A stretch of DNA of 64,000 bases, from NCBI GenBank assembly GCA_018658715.1, contig JABHUQ010000084.1:62001-126000 (forward strand). Direction: 5' to 3'. Below the pieces are notes generated by a model, which had not been told where the DNA came from, ran no database searches, and was given only the letters and a program-made list of their open reading frames with translations. This document shows positions 60,938 to 61,801 of the stretch, piece after piece (position 1 is the first letter of the stretch; every line of letters starts with the position of its first letter). Both the position numbers and the translations under genes were made by a program. The stretch is from Fidelibacterota bacterium. GTDB taxonomy: Bacteria; Fidelibacterota; Marinisomatia; Marinisomatales; UBA1611.

Positions 60938-61173
60938 AATTGGCGGGCAATTTAATAGAATTAATACTGTGTGGTGAAATATTTTATTGTGTAGACTGAA
61001 TGTCTATTTTAGGAACAGGAATCTTTCTATTTTGAAATCATATTTGAAATTACTGTTTATGATAAATATATCATTTGGGTAAGAAATATCAAACATTAGC
61101 TGAAGGGTAAAAATAATGCATGTTGAATTGAAGATAGCATGTGTAAACTACAGCTTAATCAAAAGGATAGAAG
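60938..61173. promoter_or_regulatory. Divergent spacer upstream of the cytochrome and selenoprotein genes
   Basis: 236 bp between divergent starts. It ends in AAAGGA (61162-61167), 6 nt before the selenoprotein ATG, a good Shine-Dalgarno site. A TTGAAT...TAAACT pair near 61123-61150 could be a promoter, but this is weak. No other gene is supported. Confidence 0.4.
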
Positions 61174-61401
61174 ATGAATATTTCCATTGAATATTGTACT
61201 GTTTGAAACTATTTACCACGCGCTTCCAGTTTGGAAGCGGATCTTAAAAAGCAGTTTCCTGATAGTAATATTACACTTATTTCTTCCGGGGGTGGCGTTT
61301 TTGAAGTCACATTGGATAGTGAACTCATTTTTTCAAAAAATTCCTTAGAGCGTTTTCCCAATCCAGGGGAAGTAGAAGGCCTGATTCAAGATAAACAATA
61401 G
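61174..61401 (+). CDS. SelW-like (Rdx family) selenoprotein, UGA-encoded selenocysteine
   Basis: 75 residues if the in-frame TGA at 61204-61206 is read as selenocysteine. The protein starts MNISIEYCTVU, continues NYLPRASSLEADL, then has the family-typical GGGVFEVTLDSELIFSK and ends ERFPNPGEVEGLIQDKQ. This is the whole Rdx/SelW thioredoxin-like domain, including the CxxU redox motif (C8, U11) in the position where relatives have CxxC or CxxU. A Shine-Dalgarno site AAAGGA lies 6 nt before the ATG. A bacterial SECIS-like hairpin lies just downstream of the TGA. Other genes in the window do end in TGA, so this is not a general code change. The family is thought to act in thiol redox chemistry; the substrate is unknown. 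The alternative is a recent nonsense mutation. Confidence 0.9.
61221..61239 (+). promoter_or_regulatory. Bacterial SECIS element candidate
   Basis: CGCTTCCA-GTT-TGGAAGCG is a perfect 8-bp stem with a three-base loop beginning with G. The loop starts 22 nt after the TGA codon. This fits the general description of bacterial selenocysteine insertion elements, which lie inside the coding sequence shortly after UGA with a G at the start of a small apical loop. It is coding sequence at the same time (residues RASSLEA). Confidence 0.8.
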
Positions 61402-61801
61402 CATAACCCGTTTCCCTTGTAGTGTCATTCCGGAATCTATTCAGATATTTTCATTGTGAATCAAATGGATTTCTGGTCGTAGCCAGGAATGACAGCAAAA
61501 GAGAAAGCGTCATTGCGATGATGAACGAATGTGAAGAAGAAGTGGCAGTTTTTTCAAGTAAAACCTAGTTCTTTTATTTTATTAAGGAAGTATTCCCTTA
61601 TTTAAGAACAATCATTTTTCGAGTTGAATCGGGTAGAATTTCATTTATAGAATCCTTTTATAAACCCATCTTTTCCTCACTCTTCTGGTTTTTATCAGTT
61701 TTTTAAAAATTGTTTTGACCTTTTTAGTGCTTCGTTAATGCAATCTAAAGCCAAATTACACTAACTTCTTATATAGATTTAGTTTTTGGGAGGGACAACA
61801 G
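61402..61801. other. 400-bp non-coding region
   Basis: Spacer between the selenoprotein stop and the stop of the M43-like gene. It contains an extragenic repeat-like inverted element (61423-61494) followed by AGCGTCATTGCGATGATGAACG, which resembles the GTCATTGCGA-type extragenic repeats seen in many bacterial genomes. The remainder is AT-rich with no supported gene or clear terminator. Confidence 0.5.
61423..61494. repeat. Extragenic inverted-repeat element (TGTCATTCC ... GGAATGACA)
   Basis: A 72-bp segment bounded by perfect 9-bp inverted ends TGTCATTCC (61423-61431) and GGAATGACA (61486-61494), with an inner CTGG/CCAG hairpin near 61473-61486. The layout resembles dispersed extragenic palindromic elements. 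It could also act as a terminator for the selenoprotein gene. Confidence 0.55.

Follow-up and report, generated by a model that had tools for sequence, protein, structure and literature searches.

The window, by which we mean the whole 64,000-nt stretch of DNA analysed, contains a gene of the SelT/SelW/SelH (Rdx) family, selW, with an in-frame TGA at codon 11. Judged from the sequence and its relatives, we consider it almost certain (probability about 97%) that this is a functional selenoprotein gene in which the UGA is read as selenocysteine (Sec). The window comes from a Marinimicrobia (Fidelibacterota) MAG, an assembly of 2.46 Mb that is 96% complete.

The selW gene and its product

The gene occupies positions 61174–61401 of the + strand. 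Read directly, its frame starts with ATG at 61174, contains TGA at 61204–61206 (codon 11) and ends with TAG at 61399–61401, giving 75 sense codons including the Sec codon and a single internal TGA. The read-through translation is MNISIEYCTVUNYLPRASSLEADLKKQFPDSNITLISSGGGVFEVTLDSELIFSKNSLERFPNPGEVEGLIQDKQ. A candidate Shine-Dalgarno region, AAAAGGATAGAAG (61158–61170, + strand), has its AAAGGA core about 6 nt 5′ of the ATG. These readings agree with the frame, the coordinates, the normal TAG stop and the ribosome-binding site described in the first-pass annotation, the last of which we regard as a candidate site. That annotation had also expected an ordinary gene caller to miss or truncate the gene, and under translation table 11 no open reading frame of ≥60 aa is listed at the position of selW, which makes it a clean example of this kind of omission by standard callers. 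Frames of ≥70 codons with exactly one TGA are common in this AT-rich window (30 in 64 kb); consequently, the evidence for selW is that homology extends to either side of the TGA, and not that the frame is open.

The read-through protein matched the Pfam family Rdx (PF10262) over residues 2–73 with an E-value of 2.3e-21 (76.2 bits; cut-off 22.6), TIGR02174 with 60.2 bits (cut-off 34.2), and NCBIfam NF041051 over its full length with 103.3 bits (curated cut-off 88). Scores above the curated cut-offs along the whole domain place it in the Rdx, or SelT-SelW-SelH, family, and this protein search, which had been proposed as a check, bore out the claim that reading through the TGA restores a complete Rdx/SelW pattern. 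The CxxU redox motif, C8-T9-V10-U11 (61195–61206, + strand, with the TGA codon at its end), comes after the first strand (residues 2–8), the position that a CxxC or CxxU motif takes in the thioredoxin-like fold. An AlphaFold2 model showed a small alpha/beta fold with a pLDDT of 94.7. Using foldseek, the best match among solved structures was the SelW-related protein 2fa8 (TM 0.91); the other top matches, 3dex, 2obk and 2p0g, are SelW-related as well, while thioredoxins matched much more weakly. In alignments with PDB chains of CxxC homologues, U11 falls opposite the second Cys, the redox position to which it had initially been assigned.

Compared with relatives, the sequence downstream of the TGA has a dN/dS of 0.07–0.29. 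Such values indicate that the part of the protein 3′ of the TGA is under purifying selection, and hence that it is translated. The fold and the CxxU motif suggest that SelW is likely a selenol-based thiol/disulfide oxidoreductase. Within a thioredoxin-like fold, U11 would provide the selenol and C8 the resolving thiol for thiol/disulfide-type redox work on a partner; we know of no substrate established for SelW in general.

The hairpin behind the UGA codon

Bacterial SECIS elements are characterised by a conserved G in a small loop that follows the UGA directly (PMC1088965). The selW mRNA has a bacterial SECIS-like hairpin with this feature at 61221–61239 (+ strand). Its layout is 17 unpaired bases from the UGA followed by an 8-bp stem (5′ arm 61221–61228, 3′ arm 61232–61239) that encloses a GUU loop (61229–61231), and the conserved loop G is at 61229, 22 nt after the TGA. 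The fold energy is −12.1 kcal/mol (z −2.6), and homologues form the same hairpin at the same distance from the UGA.

Selection on the hairpin was seen when the 45 nt from the UGA were compared with sequences resampled from synonymous codons. In 85 genes, uncorrected for kinship, the natural stretch was more stable (mean z −1.06), and the selW gene of the window itself gave a z of −2.1. Four control stretches of the same 85 genes gave mean z values from −0.22 to +0.04. Stem pairs and codon usage point the same way in counts that, since the genes are related, do not represent independent events: pairs 20–32 and 21–31 are formed in 96% and 91% of 74 distinct sequences (43% and 50% after shuffling) and occur as C-G, U-A, G-C and A-U versions, that is, with compensatory changes, while the Ser codon at +8 is AGT in 59 of 59 cases (14% elsewhere in the gene) and the Leu codon at +9 is TTG or CTG in 62 of 65 (38% elsewhere in the gene). 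The use of AGT for Ser +8 places a G in the hairpin loop. From these alignments the codon choices at +8 and +9 appear to be forced by the RNA, as expected of a bacterial SECIS. A search of the window and the hairpin region against Rfam gave no matching model. The alignment with its covarying SECIS hairpin can be used to annotate SelW-like sequences from metagenomes.

Conservation of the TGA and the selenocysteine machinery

Of 245 genomes searched in the phylum, 144–145 have the Rdx/SelW family. Wherever a listed match from these genomes covers the CxxU motif, it contains one TGA, and only one, at that place; all 85 genes read full-length encode CxxU (85/85), and no full-length Cys form of SelW was found among the matches listed from the 245 genomes. 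The same TGA is carried by 80/80 of the best named relatives, which come from Marinimicrobia, Gemmatimonadota, SAR324, Chloroflexota, Bacillota, KSB1 and others. This agrees with the published scarcity of Cys forms of SelW-like proteins in organisms that use Sec (PMC1794560). Matches without the TGA are 3′ pieces, most of them beside assembly gaps or contig ends, or truncated copies in the host genome (G000) and in G129, the nearest congener in the search. Partial matches in G143, G150 and other genomes suggested split selW genes; these were traced to runs of N (G143, G150) or to pieces at contig edges, so that no disruption of selW is claimed.

A strong SelA match was present in about 127 of the 144 genomes that have selW, and most of the ~17 without one are incomplete MAGs. 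The congener G130 (92% complete) has SelA and no selW. In the same order, genus g19 of family f9 (G036–G059), with small genomes of 0.4–1.0 Mb, has neither SelA nor SelW, an apparent loss of selenocysteine use along with genome reduction. A divergent CxxU type of Rdx protein, with PRxGxFE instead of SGGGVFE and its own hairpin (UUUGAC..GUCAAA), was observed in families f16–f19 (L102–L111, L113); several families of the class have it instead of the main type.

In the host genome, profile searches identified SelA (520 bits) and SelB (336 bits), encoded by adjoining genes, and SelD (399 bits), which has an in-frame TGA of its own at the active site HGSGUACK. Two contigs overlap at their ends, and this shared stretch carries the tRNA-Sec, with anticodon TCA. 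SelA, SelB, SelC and SelD are thus all encoded. The first-pass annotation had held that the gene implies a working Sec system and that a genome lacking selA, selB, selC and selD would speak against it; the search it had called for recovered every one of them. Two BCP-type peroxiredoxins have a TGA as the codon for the peroxidatic residue, TPGU (G000 C63:4866–5228, L194, and C60:17845–18231, L195), and by their sequences appear to be further selenoproteins of this genome. Together with SelW and SelD they bring the number of selenoprotein genes to at least four, a lower bound for the host selenoproteome. No match to AhpD-like (PF02627) selenoproteins was obtained in the host genome. Four molybdopterin oxidoreductases (PF00384) are encoded and none (0/4) has a TGA, so no Sec formate dehydrogenase was seen there.

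The first-pass annotation had itself named decay as the opposing case, in which selW would be a pseudogene of a CxxC Rdx protein whose TGT or TGC became TGA and which no longer yields a full product. TGA is indeed one change away from the Cys codons, and the 3′ half of selW recurs as a truncated copy 3.1 kb downstream; nevertheless, decay is highly improbable given the TGA shared at one and the same codon by all full-length matches listed from the phylum and by the 80 relatives across phyla, the conserved hairpin, the purifying selection 3′ of the TGA, the lack of any other lesion in selW and the complete Sec machinery. We give equally little credence to TGA being read as some other residue, either by genome-wide recoding (for instance, TGA = Trp) or by non-specific read-through. 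The frame would be open under such codes, but TGA terminates 8 of the window's 40 long ORFs, which marks it as a normal stop, and the alignment of U11 with a Cys, the SECIS-like hairpin and the tRNA-Sec all argue for Sec. A sequencing or assembly error that changed a Cys codon to TGA, conceivable because the window derives from a metagenome assembly, is less probable still, as the same TGA occurs in independent assemblies of many species.

With UGA at codon 11 read as selenocysteine, SelA would make Sec-tRNA(Sec) using selenophosphate from SelD, and the hairpin behind the UGA would recruit SelB with Sec-tRNA(Sec) during translation. The product would be a CxxU protein of 75 residues ending at the TAG.

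Known relatives and the surroundings of selW

Among prokaryotic selenoprotein families in the ocean, SelW-like proteins rank first in abundance, with 427 Sec and 56 Cys sequences in GOS (PMC2398784), and account for 11.3% of the selenoprotein genes in PMC9402790. The kind of gene is therefore already known, and the novelty implied by the first-pass annotation was too high. The SelW-like CxxU selenoproteins of GOS and the Sargasso Sea (PMC2398784, PMC1088965) share the Rdx domain, the CxxU motif, the loop-G hairpin behind the UGA and the marine source; there is no categorical difference, except that here the gene belongs to Marinimicrobia/Fidelibacterota and occurs phylum-wide without Cys forms among the listed matches. 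NF041051 (SelTWH_Campy, SelT/SelW/SelH family (seleno)protein), although matched full-length, differs in host phylum. The SelW-related structures 2fa8 (Agrobacterium), 3dex (Streptomyces) and 2p0g (Vibrio) have the same fold (TM 0.88–0.94) and the CxxC/U site, but carry Cys instead of Sec and are 25–36% identical. Mammalian SELENOW (2npb) is alike in CxxU and in its thioredoxin-like fold (TM 0.64), but it is distant, and the eukaryotic SECIS lies in the 3′ UTR (PMC1088965).

A limited literature search found no work on selenoproteins of Marinimicrobia, and the phylum-wide picture of SelW may be new as a detail. In this major uncultured marine phylum SelW is present in most lineages, in the Sec form only among the listed matches, which puts names to the hosts of some of the SelW-like sequences that abound in ocean metagenomes (PMC2398784, PMC9402790).

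Relatives from the same family have lexA ~240 bp downstream of selW and a cytochrome c gene upstream on the opposite strand. In the genus of the window, a 3.1-kb segment with the gene for a secreted Kelch protein (− strand, from 61802 to beyond the window end) lies between selW and lexA. It is flanked by a 222-bp direct repeat, 93% identical, made up of the selW 3′ half and the sequence that follows. The truncated second copy, consisting of the selW 3′ half and 110 bp downstream of it (C28:126435–126656; L002 1501–1722), is just past the window and adjoins lexA. It has no CxxU part, occurs in G129 with the same spacing, and probably represents the original 3′ end of selW, pushed away from the gene by the insertion of the block. 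A block of ~3.0 kb (~61460–64460, to C28:126460; L051 4460–7460) is ~99% identical between two congeners while its flanks are mostly 70–95% identical, which makes a recent exchange of this block likely. We offer only as a tentative and rather doubtful proposal that the selW surroundings are a site of recurrent insertion and exchange, where a ~3.1-kb Kelch cassette entered via the selW 3′-half repeat, rebuilt selW while leaving its former 3′ end in place, and was later passed from one species to another. The selW–lexA site may collect insertions.

A search for lexA in G130, G128 and G121, run without a positive control, gave no match. The duplicated sequence after selW (61421–61515) contains an imperfect inverted repeat, GTCATTCC...GGAATGAC, which may represent a repeat element. 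Behind the truncated selW copy, G129 carries a second, ~1.4-kb insertion that includes another Kelch-gene tail (L112 4671–6045).
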